DNA of 55,853 bases, from IMG/VR virus record IMGVR_UViG_3300025128_000049, positions 1 to 55,853 of that record, one strand, 5' to 3'. The notes beneath the pieces were generated by a model. It ran no database searches. It saw nothing but the letters and a program-made list of their open reading frames with translations, and was not told where the DNA came from. Within the stretch, counting starts at the first letter, position 1, and each line of letters begins with the position of its first letter. Made by a program: the position numbers and the translations under genes. Of this stretch, positions 4,192 to 13,457 are shown one piece after another. This DNA is from a virus.

Positions 4192-5034
4192 ATGGACTTC
4201 AGCATTTACGAAGTGGGACCGAGAGACGGATTACAAAGTAGCGATACTATTACATCTACTCATAAGAAAGTAGAACTCATCAAAAAGATAGCACAAGCGG
4301 GTATAGACAAGATTGAAGTCGGCGCTATGGTGAATCCTGATAAGGTTCCAAATATGGCTGATAGCGAACTGGTTTTCAGTAGAGTGGCTTGGCTGCAGTC
4401 TCAATGCGAATTAGGAATGCTCGTTCCAAATAGAAAGGGTGTAGAAAGAGCAATGAATGTGGGCGTCACTCAATACAATGTCTTCTTTTCACCGTCTGAT
4501 TACTTCAATACGAGAAATCACGGAAGAACCATGTCTCATATCTTCACGTCTTATTGCCATGCTCTTGCTGATGTTCCGAAGGACAACATCAGAGTATATC
4601 TCTCCACTTCTTTTGGTTGTCCTATTGCAGGCGAGATTCCAAGAAACTTAATGGAGAAGGCGCTCGATTGGGCAGATACATTAGGCTCTACAATTGTTCT
4701 ATGTGATACGGTCGGCAAGGCTAATCCTCCTCTTATCACCAAAACGATGGCTTGGACAGAAGAGTTAGACGCTAAGATTGCCCTTCATCTCCATCATGGT
4801 AAGAGAAGAGGCAGAATGAAGGATAATCTGAGTGCTGCTTTCGATTGTGGCGTGGAACAATTTGATTCTTCGATTGGAGGAATGGGTGGTTGCCCATTCA
4901 TACCGGGGAGCGGTGGAAATCTCGCTACTGAAGAATTAGTGATGTGGGGAGAGAAGGAGAATCTGGATTGTGGCGTCTCTCTAAGTGACATGAAGCCGCT
5001 CATCAACTACGTAGATAAGGCCATTAAGGTCTAA
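4192..5034 (+). CDS. HMG-CoA lyase family protein (viral AMG)
   Basis: The 280-residue product matches the 3-hydroxy-3-methylglutaryl-CoA lyase branch of the HMGL/DRE-TIM aldolase family over its full length. Visible hallmarks are V-G-P-R-D-G-L-Q at 8-15 (catalytic Arg11 and metal ligand Asp12), V-P-N-M-A-D at 52-57, L-V-P-N near 77, F-G-C-P at 141-144, H-x-H at 199/201 (metal ligands), G-G-C-P at 232-235 (the catalytic cysteine loop) and N243/E247 in G-N-L-A-T-E-E. The family splits HMG-CoA into acetoacetate and acetyl-CoA. One oddity is that the usual H-D-T-Y-G after the HxH is replaced by H-H-G-K-R-R, so substrate or activity may differ. It has no tag, no clear Shine-Dalgarno, and ends overlapping the convergent minus-strand gene by four bases. 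It looks like an auxiliary metabolic gene taken from a host. Confidence 0.85.
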   Translation: MDFSIYEVGPRDGLQSSDTITSTHKKVELIKKIAQAGIDKIEVGAMVNPDKVPNMADSELVFSRVAWLQSQCELGMLVPNRKGVERAMNVGVTQYNVFFSPSDYFNTRNHGRTMSHIFTSYCHALADVPKDNIRVYLSTSFGCPIAGEIPRNLMEKALDWADTLGSTIVLCDTVGKANPPLITKTMAWTEELDAKIALHLHHGKRRGRMKDNLSAAFDCGVEQFDSSIGGMGGCPFIPGSGGNLATEELVMWGEKENLDCGVSLSDMKPLINYVDKAIKV

Positions 5035-6112: not shown

Positions 6113-6765
6113 AGTTCGACCCGCGTTCAAAGAGTGGAAAACCCAGCATCGCTATCATGATTGGCGTCAAGCCTTCAAAGAAGGATGACAAGAAGAAGTA
6201 TGGCGGTGGGCCGGATATGAAAAAGGGTTGGGAGAACATTAACCATCGAACTATTCCTTTTTCATTCGATAATCGCTCACAGAGAGATACAGTCAAACCA
6301 ATCGACATGAGTGAACATATACAAGGCGACCCAACAAGGCCATTCGGTCGCTCTATGGAACCGGGCGAGCCTCTTATTGATACGAAAAGCGGAAAAAACG
6401 TAGATACCAATAATCCTCGAACCCTAATGCCCCGTCATCCAGCCCAATATAGCATAGAAGAGGGCAGACACTATGCTCAAGAAGGTGGAGAAGGAGAAGG
6501 AGAAGTAGACCCAGAGTCTCTACAAGAAAGCAATCCTGAACTATTCGAGATGGATGACCCACGATGGAAAGACAGAGAACCTGCACCAAAGGGTTACGAA
6601 CGTGGTAGAGATGGAAGACTTCGGAGAGTTTCCTCAGATGAGGGTAGAAGGCCATGGTCGGCAGATGACGTTTCTAACCTCTTAGCACGAGCCAAAGGTA
6701 ATGATTCCATAGCCATGAGCATGGATAACCCGATGTCAGCAGCATGGGGTCTTCTAAGGGGATGA
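6109..6765 (+). CDS. Basic protein with tag-like motif at its C-terminus
   Basis: This 218-residue protein is of unknown function. The N-terminal third is basic (R-S-K-S-G-K-P near residue 6; K-P-S-K-K-D-D-K-K-K-Y around 22-32), the middle is Glu/Gly-rich. Its last residues are D-N-P-M-S-A-A-W-G-L-L-R-G, a close match to the internal tag N/E-P-M-D-I-A-F-Q-L-L-K-D, but ending in a TGA at 6763-6765. The next gene starts two codons later in the same reading frame, so the two ORFs look like one tagged polyprotein interrupted by a stop. Either a nonsense mutation split them or the C-terminal tag is itself functional. Confidence 0.7.
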   Translation: MKFDPRSKSGKPSIAIMIGVKPSKKDDKKKYGGGPDMKKGWENINHRTIPFSFDNRSQRDTVKPIDMSEHIQGDPTRPFGRSMEPGEPLIDTKSGKNVDTNNPRTLMPRHPAQYSIEEGRHYAQEGGEGEGEVDPESLQESNPELFEMDDPRWKDREPAPKGYERGRDGRLRRVSSDEGRRPWSADDVSNLLARAKGNDSIAMSMDNPMSAAWGLLRG

Positions 6766-6771
6766 CAAAGT

Positions 6772-8775
6772 GTGTCGTCTGTTGCTGTAAGAAAGGCTTG
6801 GTATGATTCTGTCGACTCCTTGTATGAGTATGATAGTCCCCCTAATAGTGGTGAAAACACTCGCCAGACTAAACTTTACAATTTCGACCCACGAATGGCC
6901 CATCCAAAGTATGGGGAAGATTTAGCAGCAATGCGGGCTACCGATGAAGAAGTATTGGGAAGTGGGCTGAAACCTACATCGCAACCTCGCCACAATATAG
7001 AATGGGAAGAGGGAGTAAGTGAATTACTCGGCTCTAATCCTCGTTATCCAGATGAGGAGATGCATGAAGTCACACATCATGGTGTGAAGTATTTGATGAG
7101 GCCAGATGGAAAAGTTCAGTTTCCAATTAAAGAAGGAGACAAAGGAGTGTGGCTTGCTCGACCTACTGAATCAGATGCAAGTCCCGGAGGATTGTTTACA
7201 CACAGAGACGCTGATAAATTAGTTTTTGTTCGAGGTAAACCTGAGTCATTACGGGGGATGGGAAGAGCATATGAGCGAAACAGCGATGAGGCGCGAGAAA
7301 ATGTGGCAGAGATGTTTCTTCAACGAAAGAAGCCAATAGACCCAGACAGACTTGTTCAAGTGCCTATACCTAAAGATAAGCAAATGTGGCAAGTTTTGAG
7401 AGATTTGGGACTTACGGGAGGAACAGATAAGCATGGCCGAAGTAAATGGGGTAGTAAGATACCAATTAAGAAGAAAATGCCCTTGCGTAATCTATTGACT
7501 GGTATCTCTTCTCTCAAACCATCATTTGAATATCAAGGAAATTTTGCTGGGCGTCCAATGGGGTTAGTATCATACGATAGTTCGCAAGGGATTGGTCGCA
7601 GGTCATTACCATTCTATCAACGGACAGGTCGTGGTGGTAGTGAGTCGGGAGCAAAGGCAGGGCAATGGGCGCCTTTTCATGGGATTGATGTTGAAGGGCA
7701 ACACTTCGGCGACAAGGATTGGTTCGTTAAACCAAACAAAGGGTTAGGAGACCAATATGATGAATCTGCAGGTAAACGATATGGTCATTCTCGCTTACAA
7801 GGTCTTGGAGAGTGGTTAGATGCTAATTCGCCTGAGTTTGAAGAGCGACATATAGATAATGGGCGCACTGCCAATCAATGGATGATAGACAGGAATGCAG
7901 AATTTATGGACCCATCTGCATTAGGTCATGCATCACCTACTCCTGAAAAAACTACAGGTCGCGCAGAGGGATTCAAAATGGGCGAACCAATGGACATAGC
8001 CTTCCAATTGCTCAAGGATGATTCAGACGAGAAATTTGACTTTGGTCGTTTCCGGGACAAAGACTACAGATACGAGCAGACTTATGGAGATTTGAGAAAC
8101 AATCAGGAAGTCCCGATGAAGGACGCCAGATTTGGACCTTCCAGCGATAGGCGAGACCAAAGAACAGCGGAAGAAAAGAGAAACATCATCGATAACGTGG
8201 ATAGATTGCAGCACGAAGAGTTTAATCACCGTCTTCAGTTGGGAAATTATCTCACTCGTCCACATGGTGATATGAGCAATGAGAAGTTAAGAGAAAGACT
8301 TGCGACGGTGAGACCTTACGTTCTTGATGCTGAAGGTAGAATAGCCCCTGTTCCACATGAACGCTTTCATCCTAATTCCAGTCCTACCAGATGGACATTG
8401 GAACGAGAAATGAATTTAAGAGAATTAGAATCGCAACCTACGACATTCTATGAAGAAAATCCGTTTTCAGAGCAATTTCAAGATATCCACACAGGAGAAC
8501 CAATGGACATAGCCTACCAGTTGCTCAAAGACCGCAAGTCGCCGGAGGCTTGGGCACACAAGTTGGAGTATGATAAGCAATATCAGAAGAATCCAAAGAG
8601 AGTCAAGTATCGTGAGCAATTGAACGCAGAGCGTAGGAAGCGCGGCATATACGGCAAAGGCGGTGGAGATGTTAGCCATACTCAAGGTGGAAAACTCACA
8701 TTAGAGAATCCAAGTAGCAATCGAGCGAGGCACTTCAAGGGGAAGGGCACGCTTCGGAGAGTGAAGGTGAAATGA
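6772..8775 (+). CDS. Tagged polyprotein-like virion protein, 667 aa
   Basis: The GTG start at 6772 has AAGGGG about nine bases upstream and gives V-S-S-V-A-V-R-K-A at the N-terminus, like the I-R-K-A tag. Two internal tags divide the protein: G-E-P-M-D-I-A-F-Q-L-L-K at 404-415 and G-E-P-M-D-I-A-Y-Q-L-L-K at 575-586, each followed by Asp. Cleavage would yield segments of about 400, 171 and 81 residues. None has a domain I can name; the first is globular in composition, the last is very basic (Lys/Arg-rich). Each internal Met also follows a purine-rich Shine-Dalgarno-like stretch, so internal initiation is an alternative to processing. The ORF is in frame with the upstream gene across a single stop. 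Confidence 0.75.
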   Translation: MSSVAVRKAWYDSVDSLYEYDSPPNSGENTRQTKLYNFDPRMAHPKYGEDLAAMRATDEEVLGSGLKPTSQPRHNIEWEEGVSELLGSNPRYPDEEMHEVTHHGVKYLMRPDGKVQFPIKEGDKGVWLARPTESDASPGGLFTHRDADKLVFVRGKPESLRGMGRAYERNSDEARENVAEMFLQRKKPIDPDRLVQVPIPKDKQMWQVLRDLGLTGGTDKHGRSKWGSKIPIKKKMPLRNLLTGISSLKPSFEYQGNFAGRPMGLVSYDSSQGIGRRSLPFYQRTGRGGSESGAKAGQWAPFHGIDVEGQHFGDKDWFVKPNKGLGDQYDESAGKRYGHSRLQGLGEWLDANSPEFEERHIDNGRTANQWMIDRNAEFMDPSALGHASPTPEKTTGRAEGFKMGEPMDIAFQLLKDDSDEKFDFGRFRDKDYRYEQTYGDLRNNQEVPMKDARFGPSSDRRDQRTAEEKRNIIDNVDRLQHEEFNHRLQLGNYLTRPHGDMSNEKLRERLATVRPYVLDAEGRIAPVPHERFHPNSSPTRWTLEREMNLRELESQPTTFYEENPFSEQFQDIHTGEPMDIAYQLLKDRKSPEAWAHKLEYDKQYQKNPKRVKYREQLNAERRKRGIYGKGGGDVSHTQGGKLTLENPSSNRARHFKGKGTLRRVKVK

Positions 8776-8935: not shown

Positions 8936-9625
8936 ATGTTTAGACAGGATAAAGGAATAATCGGAAAAGTAATGCTTAAGATGACCTCCTTAGTGGACAG
9001 GGGCGAGGTCACAAAGATGAGCGACACAGACGAGATGAAAATGACAGGGCTAATTCTGTCCCAATCTGCTTTAGTGGGGGTAGCAGTTGGGGTATACGCT
9101 TCGGGACTATGGTTACCGGGAGGTGCTAATACGGATTCTACGATAAGTGGAATGACGTATGCGATGGGCGCGTTAGCAGTGCAAACGATTGCATACTATC
9201 TGTTCAAGATGTTCTTTGAACAAGGTATGAAGGAAAAGGTGCAAATTGCTGAAATGCAGAGACAAAGGCAGAATCAGTTCAAGCAACAGCAATTTGGCTT
9301 TGAGCAAAGAAGGGCAGATTTAGAATTGAGAGTGCAAGAGTTACAGTTAGAAAATGAATTGCGTATATTGCATGAGAATCCTGAGAGAATCACACCCGGC
9401 TATAACAACGGTAATATCGGTATAGGAATACATGGTGATTATCACAATACCTTCAATCCCGGCGTGCCTTTGCATAATGCAGACAATGAGGTGCCGTTGA
9501 ATCTCGGTTTGAGTGATGCACAGAGGATGGCAGACGCTTTGGGAACAGCACCTCCCCCTCCTCCGGGTATGCGATTGAAGAAGGATGGCACCCCAGACCT
9601 TAGATACAAGCCGCCTTCACAGTGA
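8936..9625 (+). CDS. Two-TM membrane protein with coiled coil
   Basis: The 229-residue product has two hydrophobic segments (about 36-60 and 72-94), then a long Gln/Glu/Arg-rich coiled coil (about 95-148) and a Pro-rich tail containing six consecutive prolines. An alternative start is the ATG at 9017, with GAGGT upstream; starting at 8936 adds a leader containing G-K-V-M-L-K-M, loosely like the I-R-K tag. No family is recognised. It is followed by another membrane protein and a small GTPase, suggesting a membrane-associated module. Confidence 0.7.
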   Translation: MFRQDKGIIGKVMLKMTSLVDRGEVTKMSDTDEMKMTGLILSQSALVGVAVGVYASGLWLPGGANTDSTISGMTYAMGALAVQTIAYYLFKMFFEQGMKEKVQIAEMQRQRQNQFKQQQFGFEQRRADLELRVQELQLENELRILHENPERITPGYNNGNIGIGIHGDYHNTFNPGVPLHNADNEVPLNLGLSDAQRMADALGTAPPPPPGMRLKKDGTPDLRYKPPSQ

Positions 9626-9629
9626 TTAT

Positions 9630-9917
9630 ATGGTGCTACCCGGACAATTGATACCAAGTCCCTTGCGAATCTTTCGTAATGTGCAAGATGATTCTGTAGA
9701 GGAAACTCTCAGAGCGATGCATCTTGCTAATACTGTGGATAATACCTACGAGTGGGGAATTGGATGGATAAGAACGATTATTATTTCTCTCATTGTCGCA
9801 TTAGCCGTGTCTGCTACTGAGTCAAATAGTGATTTCAGCCTTTGGGAATCTACAGTCGAATGGTTCTATGAGAAAGTCAGAAACATAGGACAAGGTATTA
9901 TTGATTGGGCAAGTTGA
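9630..9917 (+). CDS. Single-pass membrane protein, 95 aa
   Basis: I start this gene at the ATG at 9630 rather than at 9585, because the longer form overlaps the previous coding sequence heavily. The product has one strong hydrophobic segment (about residues 47-62, I-I-I-S-L-I-V-A-L-A-V) between an amphipathic N-terminal part and a Trp/Glu-rich C-terminal helix. No family is recognised. It lies directly between the coiled-coil membrane protein and the small GTPase, and may anchor or partner either. Confidence 0.65.
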   Translation: MVLPGQLIPSPLRIFRNVQDDSVEETLRAMHLANTVDNTYEWGIGWIRTIIISLIVALAVSATESNSDFSLWESTVEWFYEKVRNIGQGIIDWAS

Positions 9918-9923
9918 TATTCT

Positions 9924-10631
9924 ATGGTGGGCGGAGGAAGCGTCCTTGTAGGCGTTGCCTTATGGGGCAAGCAAATTTGGAATAACTGGAAACCGAGAAA
10001 AGTCGGTATCTACGGAGCGAGTATGGTCGGTAAGACCACTCTCGACAAATACATGACTACTCCCGGTGAGATGGAAGATATACCAATTGAAGATAGGACA
10101 GAGCATTACAAACTATTGACCAAGTATCTATTGCCTAAACCAACGAGAAAGAGGATTCGTTGGGAAGGAGAGAGAAGGGTCATTCATTCGACTGATATGG
10201 GCGGCCAAGAGCGATTTTGGAACTTATGGATTGATGATATGGTGAATAGACAGTGTGAGTATGTAGTATTCATGTTTGATGAGCGAGCGTTTAGGGAAGG
10301 AGCGTTAGACCAGATAGGCGGATTCAGGTTTCTTGTAGACTCAATAATCAATCGAAATTATAGATACCGAAATTGGAAGAGTTGGAGGAGAGGTAAGAAG
10401 TATGTTCCTCGACTCGTAGTCTTGATTGCTAACAAAGCAGACAGATACTTTGACAATCATGCTGCAACGTTATGGCAACAAGGAAGAATAGGCGAACACA
10501 AGATATTCGACCCCTTCCGTGATGACCTTATTAGGCTTCAAAAAGCAGGTATACCAACCAAGCGCAATTTCATGGCGACACGTATAGGATGGAACGTAGA
10601 GCCCGCTTTATTGGAAATGATTGATTATTGA
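9924..10631 (+). CDS. Ras/Arf-like small GTPase
   Basis: The 235-residue protein has the ordered motifs of a Ras-superfamily GTPase: P-loop G-A-S-M-V-G-K-T-T at 31-39, switch II D-M-G-G-Q-E at 91-96 with the glutamine that activates water in Ras/Arf proteins, and N-K-A-D at 170-173 for guanine recognition. A hydrophobic, glycine-rich N-terminus (residues 3-20) may insert in or lie on the membrane. An Arg/Lys-rich insertion sits around 147-160. Its neighbours are two membrane proteins upstream, consistent with a membrane task such as remodelling, assembly or exit, but that is inference. Small GTPases of this type are rare in viruses; capture from the host is likely. Confidence 0.85.
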   Translation: MVGGGSVLVGVALWGKQIWNNWKPRKVGIYGASMVGKTTLDKYMTTPGEMEDIPIEDRTEHYKLLTKYLLPKPTRKRIRWEGERRVIHSTDMGGQERFWNLWIDDMVNRQCEYVVFMFDERAFREGALDQIGGFRFLVDSIINRNYRYRNWKSWRRGKKYVPRLVVLIANKADRYFDNHAATLWQQGRIGEHKIFDPFRDDLIRLQKAGIPTKRNFMATRIGWNVEPALLEMIDY

Positions 10632-10674
10632 CCTCGTAAGTGACCTTTTTGAAGTAGATAGGAGTCGGAGATAT

Positions 10675-10851
10675 ATGGCGAAGGGGAGTTCCACCACATC
10701 TTTGGTATCTACAGGAGGTAGTAATTCTCTCAGAACTACCATTCCGATGTGGATTGTGGAACAGTTCGATTTGAAGGCTGGAAGTAAGATAGATTGGTCT
10801 TTACAGGTCGAAAACGACGCAATGACTATCTTAGTGACCCCACAGGAGTGA
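10675..10851 (+). CDS. AbrB/SpoVT-type transcription regulator
   Basis: I use the ATG at 10675, preceded by GGAG, giving 58 residues; a longer open frame begins at 10621 but overlaps the GTPase. The body (S-L-R-T-T-I-P-x-W-I-V-E-Q-F-D-L-K-A-G-S-K-I-D-W, residues 18-41) is a typical AbrB swapped-hairpin DNA-binding domain as found in many archaeal single-domain regulators and antitoxins. No toxin partner is adjacent. It probably binds DNA as a dimer and may control this gene block or host genes. Confidence 0.85.
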   Translation: MAKGSSTTSLVSTGGSNSLRTTIPMWIVEQFDLKAGSKIDWSLQVENDAMTILVTPQE

Positions 10852-10855
10852 TACA

Positions 10856-11809
10856 ATGGTGATGAATTACTGGCAACAACCCAATCAAAATCTTGCACAA
10901 GTAAATGATGCTACGTTGATGGCTCTCTCGCAGCAGGGAAATCCCGGCTTTACCCATGCTATGTTAATGGAACAAGCGGCCGCACAACAGCAAATGCAGA
11001 GAATGGCAACGGAGAAGAACTTAGAAGTTCCTAAAGTGAACTTCTACCCATCACGTCATGCTAATCCAGTAAAGGCAAGAAAATCTGATATTAAGCAAGC
11101 ATACAAGTTATTGAAACCCACGAAGCGTTCTATTCTTGACCCGCGAAGATGGGGTTGGAGTAATTACAGATATACCAAGGACACATCAATGTGCTGCGTA
11201 GACGGATGTAACGTTATGGAATTGATTCAACATGATAACCTATATGCGCGTATAAGCGATGAAGATAGCGGTAAGACTCTATGGGAATTATATTGGAAGA
11301 ATCCAGTTACTGGAGAACCGGAGGCATTTGTCGCTCGTGAAGGAGTTACAAGTGGTAGAAAACTAAGAGCAACATATTGTCCTGAGCACCTCCATCTCTA
11401 TCATCTCCTTTGTAAGTGGGAAGAAGAGGAGGAACGCGAGGCTGAACTTCGACCAAGTCGATTCCGCGATAAAATCAAGAGGGGAGTAAGCATTGTTACG
11501 GTGCCGGTTGCGGCAGTAACAGGAGCCCCAACTGGACCAATTCATCCTTTAATTACAAAATATGAGCCATTCTTCGCTGAAGTTTCTGCAGATGCGAGGA
11601 AGACAAATGGTATTACAATGCTGCATTATTCTAATCCTGTGACGGGTGAGAATGATATAACTACGATTACCTTTGATATGAGGATGTTTCAACAGGAACT
11701 CATCGAAATGTCTCGACCTACACAGGCATTCCAAGATGTTCTCAACCAACAGGCTCAAGTCATGCAGCCTCCCCCATTACCACCAGAGATAGCGCAGGAG
11801 GTTCAATAA
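10856..11809 (+). CDS. Unknown protein with Cys cluster and internal tag
   Basis: The start at 10856 follows CAGGAGTG. The 317-residue product has a Gln/Met-rich N-terminus, then S-D-I-K-Q-A-Y-K-L-L-K at 77-87, resembling the shared tag, and a middle region with C-C-V-D-G-C followed about 60 residues later by C-P-E-H, which could bind zinc. A hydrophobic stretch and a Pro/Gln-rich C-terminus follow. I cannot name a family. It overlaps the next gene by one base (TAATG). If cleaved after Lys87 it would release an 87-residue leader. Confidence 0.65.
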   Translation: MVMNYWQQPNQNLAQVNDATLMALSQQGNPGFTHAMLMEQAAAQQQMQRMATEKNLEVPKVNFYPSRHANPVKARKSDIKQAYKLLKPTKRSILDPRRWGWSNYRYTKDTSMCCVDGCNVMELIQHDNLYARISDEDSGKTLWELYWKNPVTGEPEAFVAREGVTSGRKLRATYCPEHLHLYHLLCKWEEEEEREAELRPSRFRDKIKRGVSIVTVPVAAVTGAPTGPIHPLITKYEPFFAEVSADARKTNGITMLHYSNPVTGENDITTITFDMRMFQQELIEMSRPTQAFQDVLNQQAQVMQPPPLPPEIAQEVQ

Positions 11810-12474
11810 TGACATTCGGACAACCACCAGTAAGTAGTGGACTGAGCCTCAATTTGAGTCAATCTGGTGCGCCGATGACTAACGGTTACGCGGCTTCTGC
11901 TGCTGCACCAGCCTATTCTGGCTATGCTGCACCCAGTCAAGGTTGGTATGGAAGCCAACAACCCAGTGCAGGACAAGCAATGTTTGCAGGTCTCACAGGG
12001 CAAGACCCTTACAATCAACAACCAATTATGCCACCCAGTGAAACGGAGATTCTAATGACAATGTTAGACCAGCAGTATTCTGTTGAGAGATTTCTTGCAT
12101 CTCCTCTCTTTCCACAATTACTTGAGATAATCAGCGCCATAACTACTTTTTCCGTATTAAACGTCCTGAAAGGAGCATCTTACGATTTTGATGAGGATGC
12201 TGGCGTATTCTCTTTCAATACTACTTCGTTACCTCCAGAACTTCAAACAATGAGTGCTGAAAACGTCTTGGCTCAAGTTACAGCAATGAACGGGCAATTA
12301 ACGCAACTCATTAGTCAAGCAGACCAAATTAAGATGCAAACTATGCAGAATGCTGGTAATAGTATACTTCAAGCACAACTCGCTAATGCTATGGCTAATC
12401 CCGGTATGATGACGGGTGCCGCAGAAGCGGGTGGTTCCTTCTTGAGGAACTTCATTACTGGAGGTAGAGTCTGA
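11809..12474 (+). CDS. Unknown Gln/Ala/Pro-rich protein, 221 aa
   Basis: The N-terminal 75 residues are low-complexity (Ser, Ala, Tyr, Gln, Pro, Gly). The central part is helical with a hydrophobic face around F-P-Q-L-L-E-I-I-S-A-I-T-T-F. The C-terminus is Ala/Gly/Met-rich with many Asn/Gln. It is sandwiched with one-base overlaps between the Cys-cluster protein and a small membrane protein, so the three are probably made together. No family is recognised; a virion or membrane-complex structural role is plausible. Confidence 0.6.
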   Translation: MTFGQPPVSSGLSLNLSQSGAPMTNGYAASAAAPAYSGYAAPSQGWYGSQQPSAGQAMFAGLTGQDPYNQQPIMPPSETEILMTMLDQQYSVERFLASPLFPQLLEIISAITTFSVLNVLKGASYDFDEDAGVFSFNTTSLPPELQTMSAENVLAQVTAMNGQLTQLISQADQIKMQTMQNAGNSILQAQLANAMANPGMMTGAAEAGGSFLRNFITGGRV

Positions 12475-12737
12475 TGATGGGAGGAGGAAGCGGCATGGGC
12501 GGAATGGTGCCAAGGCAGATAGCCGATATGAGCATGCACATGCTTGCACCCAAGAGGCAAGTTGTTGTGGATATGGTGATGGTTCAACTCATCAGTGCTA
12601 TCCTAATTTTTATGGGAATTTTAACTTTCAAGAACGCTGAAATTTCACAAGTAGAGATGTCGATGTATATGCTTGGGGTTTTTATCTCATTTATTCTTCT
12701 CACTTCAATCTACCAGCGTATTACGCGCTCTCTCTAA
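12474..12737 (+). CDS. Small two-TM membrane protein
   Basis: The 87-residue product has a Gly/Met-rich N-terminus and two transmembrane helices (about 35-52 and 63-80) joined by a short acidic loop, ending in a basic tail. The topology is holin-like, but many small viral membrane proteins look this way and no endolysin is adjacent. It overlaps the previous stop (TGATG). A lysis or membrane-complex role is only a suggestion. Confidence 0.6.
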   Translation: MMGGGSGMGGMVPRQIADMSMHMLAPKRQVVVDMVMVQLISAILIFMGILTFKNAEISQVEMSMYMLGVFISFILLTSIYQRITRSL

Positions 12738-12740
12738 GCA

Positions 12741-13457
12741 ATGCTGATTAAGCACGTAGTATTCCGCTTATGCATGGTTGAGCGTAAGCCAGTCGTAAAG
12801 AGGTCATGTGCCTTTTGCCAAATCGAGGAGCGAGGGGTGCTCGAAGAGGCTCTTACGAATGGCGAAATGTCATGTTCGCAATTGGATAAAGACATGGGTT
12901 GGAGAGCCAATACTGCGGACCGGCATTTTCGTAATCACATGGGGCAATACCACATGGCTGCTAATCCGTCTTGCATTATTTGTTCAAGTGAAAGCAGAAG
13001 TGAATATGAGGAACGTTTCTTCTCTGATGGGTCAGAATCAGATGCGATAGCAGAAGAGTTAGGAATCAAGGAGAGCACTGTGTATCATCACATGAAACAC
13101 CACTTTCAGCCGTTGGTTCAACGTTCGGCGGCGACTGAGGTCGCAATTACAGTCGGAAATGAGATTACCGTGCTTCGAGGGAACGTCGAAAGATTAAACT
13201 CTAAACTTACGGAACTCATGGATGAAGGGGATGTGCATGAGGATGGATTTGTGAGAAAAGCCGTCTCTCTCCATAAGGAAGTCCGCGAGTCTATCAAGGA
13301 TTTAACCAAGGTGCAAGACCAATGGGGCACTATGGGTGATGGCACGCAAGTTAATCAGACCATTAACATTCTACAGGTTGAACTGGCAAAAGAGAGTCCA
13401 GAAAGTTGGAAACGTATTAAGACAAAACTTCAAAGTGAAGCAGGTGAAATACCGTGA
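12741..13457 (+). CDS. Putative terminase small subunit / HTH protein
   Basis: The 238-residue product has two similar N-terminal modules, each with a Cys pair (C-A-F-C near 23-26; C-I-I-C near 77-80) followed by a helix-turn-helix-like segment ending in paired His residues (R-H-F-R-N-H; Y-H-H-M-K-H-H). A long coiled region and a C-terminal part with D-G-T-Q-V-N-Q-T-I-N follow. Repeated DNA-binding modules plus an oligomerising region suit a small terminase subunit, but TerL lies 5 kb downstream, so the assignment is tentative. A second start at 12774 is possible; neither has a clear ribosome site. Confidence 0.5.
   Translation: MLIKHVVFRLCMVERKPVVKRSCAFCQIEERGVLEEALTNGEMSCSQLDKDMGWRANTADRHFRNHMGQYHMAANPSCIICSSESRSEYEERFFSDGSESDAIAEELGIKESTVYHHMKHHFQPLVQRSAATEVAITVGNEITVLRGNVERLNSKLTELMDEGDVHEDGFVRKAVSLHKEVRESIKDLTKVQDQWGTMGDGTQVNQTINILQVELAKESPESWKRIKTKLQSEAGEIP

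Follow-up and report, generated by a model that had tools for sequence, protein, structure and literature searches.

A predicted Ras-superfamily GTPase in a conserved gene cassette of magrovirus-like tailed viruses

Known viral and archaeal small GTPases and the locus

Virus-encoded small GTPases are known from giant viruses, and the Rab/Ras-type GTPase of mimivirus has been proposed to play a role in virion membrane formation (PMC11915834). Among archaea, ArvA of Haloferax volcanii (HVO_3014) is a small GTPase with an N-terminal helix that drives vesicle budding; its loss abolishes vesicles, and its excess increases them. The same operon encodes ArvB (DUF2073) and ArvC (a DUF2072 Zn ribbon), and the Zn-ribbon partner has been proposed to act as a GTPase-activating protein (GAP) (PMC10927574).

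We analysed a 55,853-base virus record (IMG/VR record IMGVR_UViG_3300025128_000049, positions 1 to 55,853), hereafter the window, which is taken to be a fragment of a larger virus genome because its relatives reach 118 kb. An earlier note on this DNA had placed a Ras/Arf-like GTPase within a viral structural region. The location was confirmed: the open reading frame (ORF) sits at the left margin of the structural block, on the same strand as, and upstream of, the terminase, portal, head protease, and major capsid protein (MCP) genes. The genes of the locus are as follows.

8936..9625, +, membrane protein with one to two transmembrane (TM) segments, a coiled coil, and a Pro-rich C-terminus; conserved cassette member
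9585..9917, +, small protein with a single TM segment, encoded immediately before the GTPase; in 146/149 relatives
9924..10631, +, predicted Ras-superfamily GTPase, 235 aa, ATG start (motifs, model, and conservation)
10672..10851, +, AbrB/MazE-type swapped-hairpin DNA-binding protein, 59 aa (MazE_antitoxin, 4.9e-5)
10856..11809, +, 317-aa protein with a conserved Cys/His cluster (C113...YC175PEH178xH); in 149/149 relatives
11809..12474, +, 221-aa protein whose N-terminus is of low complexity; conserved in the cassette
12474..12737, +, small conserved cassette protein that has two TM segments
12741..13457, +, 238-aa syntenic neighbour on the downstream side, containing two helix-turn-helix-like CxxC...HxxxH modules
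18741, terminase, structural gene downstream of the GTPase
21407, portal, structural gene downstream of the GTPase
30110, head protease, structural gene downstream of the GTPase
31527, MCP, structural gene downstream of the GTPase

The view in the earlier note that small GTPases are very rare in viruses holds for prokaryotic viruses; giant viruses are known to encode such GTPases. Searches of the 50,697 phage records of INPHARED by tblastn with human Rab1A, human Arf1, or the viral GTPase returned nothing. No mention of a GTPase was found in the parts of the magrovirus literature that were covered, and an earlier annotation may exist in other parts. Like the Rab/Ras proteins of giant viruses (Nucleocytoviricota), which head the matches to its predicted structure in a viral structure library (Foldseek; no named prokaryotic virus among the matches listed), the window protein appears to be a virus-encoded Ras-superfamily GTPase. 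The giant-virus proteins, however, are eukaryote-derived and recognisable by sequence, whereas in structure alignments the present family shares just 11-19% identity with the best of them, and its members are found in archaeal tailed viruses.

The viral protein resembles ArvA in consisting of one small GTPase domain, in having a membrane-type helix at its N-terminus, in the Cys/His (Zn-type) protein encoded nearby, and in its archaeal setting. Unlike ArvA, it is viral rather than cellular, carries an insert region of roughly 30 aa, and has a non-conserved Gln; Pfam scans detected neither DUF2073 nor DUF2072 among the cassette neighbours. Because these operon partners are absent, we do not class the viral GTPase as an ArvA. 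Judged by architecture and neighbours, ArvA would be its nearest functional analogue, a likeness in possible working that claims no membership, and by analogy it shows that such a GTPase device can work in a euryarchaeal membrane.

Motifs, fold, and subfamily placement

The window protein contains the G motifs GASMVGKTT (P-loop), DMGGQ, NKAD, and ATRIGWNVE; the last, G5-like motif adds to those listed in the earlier note. Its segments are as follows.

9933..9989, +, N-terminal helix, residues 4-22, putative membrane anchor (AlphaFold helix; hydrophobicity profile)
10014..10040, +, G1 P-loop GxxxxGKTT, residues 31-39; G31, G36, K37, T38, and T39 invariant in 149 relatives
10047..10142, +, insert particular to this family, residues 42-73, located after alpha1 and before switch I; TPGEM and RTxH are invariant
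10143..10145, +, T74, candidate for the Thr of switch I (G2), placed by position
10194..10253, +, residues 91-110, G3 DxGG[QEDH] plus switch II, where conservation of the protein is highest
10431..10442, +, G4 NKAD, residues 170-173, invariant in 149 relatives
10575..10598, +, G5-like ATRxGWNV, residues 218-225; A218, T219, G222, W223, and V225 invariant

Conservation was counted in an alignment of 149 relatives of the GTPase, all of which retain the superfamily patterns of G1 (GxxxxGK[ST]), G3 (DxxG), and G4 (NKxD). Invariance in these 149 sequences extends over the G1 residues listed above, D91 and G94, N170, K171, A172, and D173, and A218, T219, and G222, so the nucleotide-binding motifs are not a product of chance. 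The insert has its own invariant columns (T46-M50, R58, T59, and H61). The position of T74, which is assigned to G2 by position only, is occupied by T or S in all 94 rows of a thinned alignment and sits directly before beta2, like the P-T-x-G of Rab and Arf. Switch II (...ERFWNLWIDDMVxR) has the highest mean conservation of any segment (0.868), and D91, G94, W99, L101, W102, D105, V107, and R109 are invariant in this region. This degree of conservation exceeds what nucleotide binding needs and therefore suggests a conserved partner. Values of dN/dS between 0.015 and 0.20 in nine informative gene pairs indicate purifying selection.

The catalytic Gln that follows G3 is common in the Ras superfamily but is neither universal nor defining. 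Residue 95, at this site, is Q in the window protein, and its counts among the 149 relatives are 96 Q, 41 E, 10 D, and 2 H. On a tree of 94 rows, it changed at least 10 times, and the Q of the window is nested in a clade of mostly E. The earlier note had described all main motifs as intact, including the activating Gln; the P-loop, DxGG, and NKxD indeed proved invariant, whereas Gln 95, as judged from the alignment, is not a conserved family feature. These sequence data point to a deeply divergent branch of small GTPases in which the catalytic Gln has been repeatedly swapped. About one sequence in three has Glu, Asp, or His instead of Gln. Hydrolysis is therefore likely to be slow, to be stimulated by a partner, or to be assisted by a different residue (R58, H61, and R77 are candidates), and the variation at this site makes a canonical on/off switch less convincing.

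An AlphaFold2 model built with 45 sequences (pLDDT 77, pTM 0.77) places the helix of residues 4-22 ahead of the Ras order of elements, and this order of six strands and five helices agrees with the Foldseek matches; the P-loop region is poorly modelled. Foldseek retrieved 1,109 PDB chains at E <= 1e-3 (best, about 1e-7), with leaders that include Rab27B, Rab1b, KRAS, Rac1, and RhoD and target TM-scores of 0.45-0.64. By sequence, no significant PDB match was obtained with either a single-sequence or a profile query. The best, non-significant match (E 0.26) was 8oun, a GTP-binding protein with a DxGGQ...LW pattern, which we take to be an Asgard Arf-like protein. All Pfam/NCBIfam profiles considered (Roc, Arf, Ras, Gtr1, and small_GTP) scored sub-threshold: PF08477 (Roc), the best in Pfam, matched 23 of 45 members (best E 7.5e-4, below its curated cut-off), PF00025 (Arf) matched 7 of 45 (best E 0.021, below the cut-off), and PF00071 (Ras/Rab) reached 0.068 at best, also below the cut-off. 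PHROGs gave weak matches to families that carry no GTPase name. Of the single reference sequences compared by hhalign, just two gave usable alignments: HRAS (probability 90) and Rab1A, whose short G1, G3, G4, and G5 motifs aligned collinearly, including the NVE segment. These comparisons do not rank subfamilies.

The viral family shares with Arf/Sar/SR-beta proteins a GKTT P-loop, a DxGGQxxxxxLW switch II, and an N-terminal helix before beta1; within the family, GKTT, D-x-GG, and LW are conserved, and the Q is variable. It differs from them in its sub-threshold Pfam Arf score, the insert before switch I, and a more Rab-like G5. The Gly2 used for N-myristoylation in Arf proteins is not conserved, position 2 being mostly A, T, S, D, or E. 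Unlike Rab and Ras, neither the window protein nor the alignment consensus has a C-terminal prenylation Cys, and unlike Roc, the viral protein has no COR domain. Thus, GKTT and DxGGQ...LW point to Arf and the G5 segment points to Rab, and neither is decisive. Motifs and model together indicate a member of the Ras superfamily outside any subfamily profile (Ras, Rab, Arf, or Roc) above cut-off, which upholds the Ras/Arf-like label of the earlier note at the level of the superfamily and not for Ras or Arf specifically.

The N-terminus is hydrophobic, as had been noted. The first half of the helix has a mean Eisenberg hydrophobicity of 0.67 and a moment of 0.09; the second half is amphipathic (0.04 and 0.48, respectively) and is followed by KPRK. 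Full-length relatives also have this helix. Its profile and the model make a membrane anchor formed by the N-terminal ~24 residues plausible, though these are short for a classical transmembrane helix; the hydrophobic stretch could instead be a short, buried helix.

Gene cassette, virus lineage, and distribution

The gene order 8936-9585-GTPase-10856-11809-12474-12741 is kept in essentially all relatives, and the GTPase thus belongs to a cassette of fixed synteny with three small membrane proteins (8936, 9585, and 12474) and the Cys/His protein. The two membrane-protein neighbours previously proposed were borne out by the predicted membrane segments of 8936 and 9585. The AbrB/MazE-like ORF at 10672, whose MazE_antitoxin score falls just under the cut-off, lies between the GTPase and 10856 and is missing in many loci; because it is absent from part of the family, it appears to be optional and not core to the cassette. 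The zinc-finger-like Cys/His protein at 10856 is a candidate partner or regulator of the GTPase, and fold and profile searches with this protein (AlphaFold pTM 0.51) revealed no known fold and no recognisable GAP or guanine nucleotide exchange factor (GEF). The 12741 protein, which is strongly conserved and whose gene precedes the terminase, may act as a regulator of late functions or be a small terminase-like protein.

The window MCP is 33% identical to the MCPs of the haloviruses HVTV-1 and HCTV-5 (Druskaviridae), and haloviruses of this type are known neighbours of magroviruses (PMC8651126). Two further genes were sought in relatives of the window virus: family B DNA polymerase (PolB) was encoded in all 10 large relatives, and a thermosome-type chaperonin was found in 18 of the 18 large relatives tested. 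These chaperonins scored 335-445 bits as archaeal thermosomes versus <=61 bits as GroEL, which agrees with a previously described clade of Poseidoniales viruses that carry a thermosome (PMC5332604). An HK97 MCP near Druskaviridae, together with PolB and a chaperonin in relatives, corresponds to the Magrovirales type, and by these sequence relationships the window virus is best described as a magrovirus-like tailed virus of the archaeal type. On the basis of the MCP relatedness, PolB, and the thermosome-type chaperonin of its relatives, we infer Poseidoniales as the probable host, in agreement with the archaeal setting suggested earlier.

The GTPase family comprises over 200 IMG/VR contigs at about 50-97% identity (four overlapping queries gave 120, 212, 142, and 63 relatives). 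To assess its status as a core gene, contigs were selected by the MCP gene alone and scored by the length of sequence upstream of the MCP. The GTPase was present in all 20 contigs with >=21.2 kb upstream of the MCP, and the 18 selected contigs without it all end <19.2 kb upstream. A second contig set agreed apart from two contigs that reach about 20 kb upstream and three that are HVTV-1-like. The structural half of HVTV-1 contained no homologue of any cassette protein. Because all contigs that cover the locus carry the gene and those that lack it are cut short of the locus (HVTV-1-like contigs apart), the GTPase appears to be a core gene of the thermosome-bearing magrovirus-like lineage and not of its halophilic relatives. 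The sole matches in genome collections were two marine bacterial metagenome-assembled genome (MAG) contigs, labelled Maricaulis and Cytophagaceae, which are apparently misbinned magrovirus-like sequence because they share the synteny of the viral cassette. No homologue of the GTPase was detected among PLSDB plasmids.

Possible roles of the GTPase

The reading that we favour, at about an even chance, is that the GTPase serves as a nucleotide switch, tethered to the membrane, within a late membrane module of the virus that acts in assembly or exit. The N-terminal helix would hold the protein at the host membrane, on its cytoplasmic side. With the nucleotide triphosphate bound, the conserved switch II and the extended switch I/insert would bind a viral partner, for which the candidates are the 10856 protein, the cytoplasmic portion of the 8936 protein, or both, and this binding would time or power a late membrane step, such as the reshaping of membranes for exit or the assembly of virions attached to a membrane. 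The membrane-linked job in assembly or exit imagined in the earlier note therefore stands in part: membrane association is suggested by the sequence and by the membrane-protein neighbours, and a role of the cassette in assembly or exit is plausible, although nothing in sequence or fold points to exit, assembly, or the bending of membranes.

Several other explanations were weighed against this switch. The GTPase may be a morphogenesis factor, either a membrane-tethered NTP switch that initiates prohead or tail assembly at the host membrane or a virion component used for entry; we hold this to be possible, though short of probable. Its position at the left edge of the structural block and its universality in the lineage favour such a role, but HVTV-1 and HVTV-1-like contigs have a homologous MCP and no GTPase, and no link between the GTPase and capsid proteins was found. 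A rather doubtful proposal is that the protein is a counterpart of archaeal vesiculating or Arf-type GTPases that itself bends or destabilises the host membrane for lysis or exit, with the neighbouring membrane proteins as a lysis apparatus. The Arf-like GKTT and DxGGQxxxxxLW, the pattern shared with 8oun, the ArvA precedent, and the lack of a recognisable lysis gene among the window proteins scanned are in line with it; the sub-threshold Arf profile and neighbours other than DUF2073/DUF2072 speak against it.

The suggestion that the protein is a decoy for a host GTPase, i.e., an inhibitor titrating the regulators of a host small GTPase, draws on the dispensable catalytic Gln, which would be tolerable in a non-cycling mimic. 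We regard it as unlikely: the protein is highly divergent from the families compared and has its own insert, and the invariant nucleotide-binding motifs, conserved switch II, strong purifying selection, and fixed synteny of a universal core gene suggest an integral viral partner instead. Least probable by far is that a different type of P-loop NTPase, for instance an ATPase for packaging or replication, has been taken for a GTPase. Matches to the P-loops of RecA and Sak4 were weak and at chance level, and another P-loop family was rejected given the invariant NKAD and G5-like motif, the full Ras topology, and the fold matches. Neither outcome that the earlier note had named as telling against a GTPase, loss of the motifs in relatives or placement in an unrelated P-loop family, was observed.

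In eukaryotes, switches of the Ras type regulate membranes, and in euryarchaea they have a proven role in vesicle formation; the searches of catalogued prokaryotic viruses found none. The presence in the abundant magroviruses of a GTPase that is universal, syntenic, and conserved in its nucleotide-binding motifs suggests that their cycle includes a late step requiring a nucleotide switch at the membrane. We tentatively extend the late-switch reading to a dedicated membrane-remodelling machine of archaeal viruses, in which an anchored Ras-type GTPase, viral membrane partners, and a Cys/His regulator would serve exit or assembly. If so, tailed viruses would have their first example of exit or assembly driven by a GTPase, in an archaeal virus group that is among the most abundant of the ocean. 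Likely partners of the GTPase can now be named, which opens the magrovirus exit mechanism to direct test, and the known diversity of small GTPases would gain a deeply divergent branch.

Other genes of the window include an HMGL-like lyase at 4192-5034 (Pfam 7.9e-28), which matches the HMG-CoA lyase gene reported in Aoguangviridae, and an ORF at 2110-2625 with a weak hemerythrin HHE match (Pfam, E 0.004). The peptide GEPMDIAFQLLK occurs at 7990, 8503, 14301, and 34929 (with a variant at 6733) in otherwise unrelated proteins and with differing codons. In related loci, its pattern is found 44 times on the coding strand versus once on the other strand, and the peptide is possibly a virion-targeting or processing signal.
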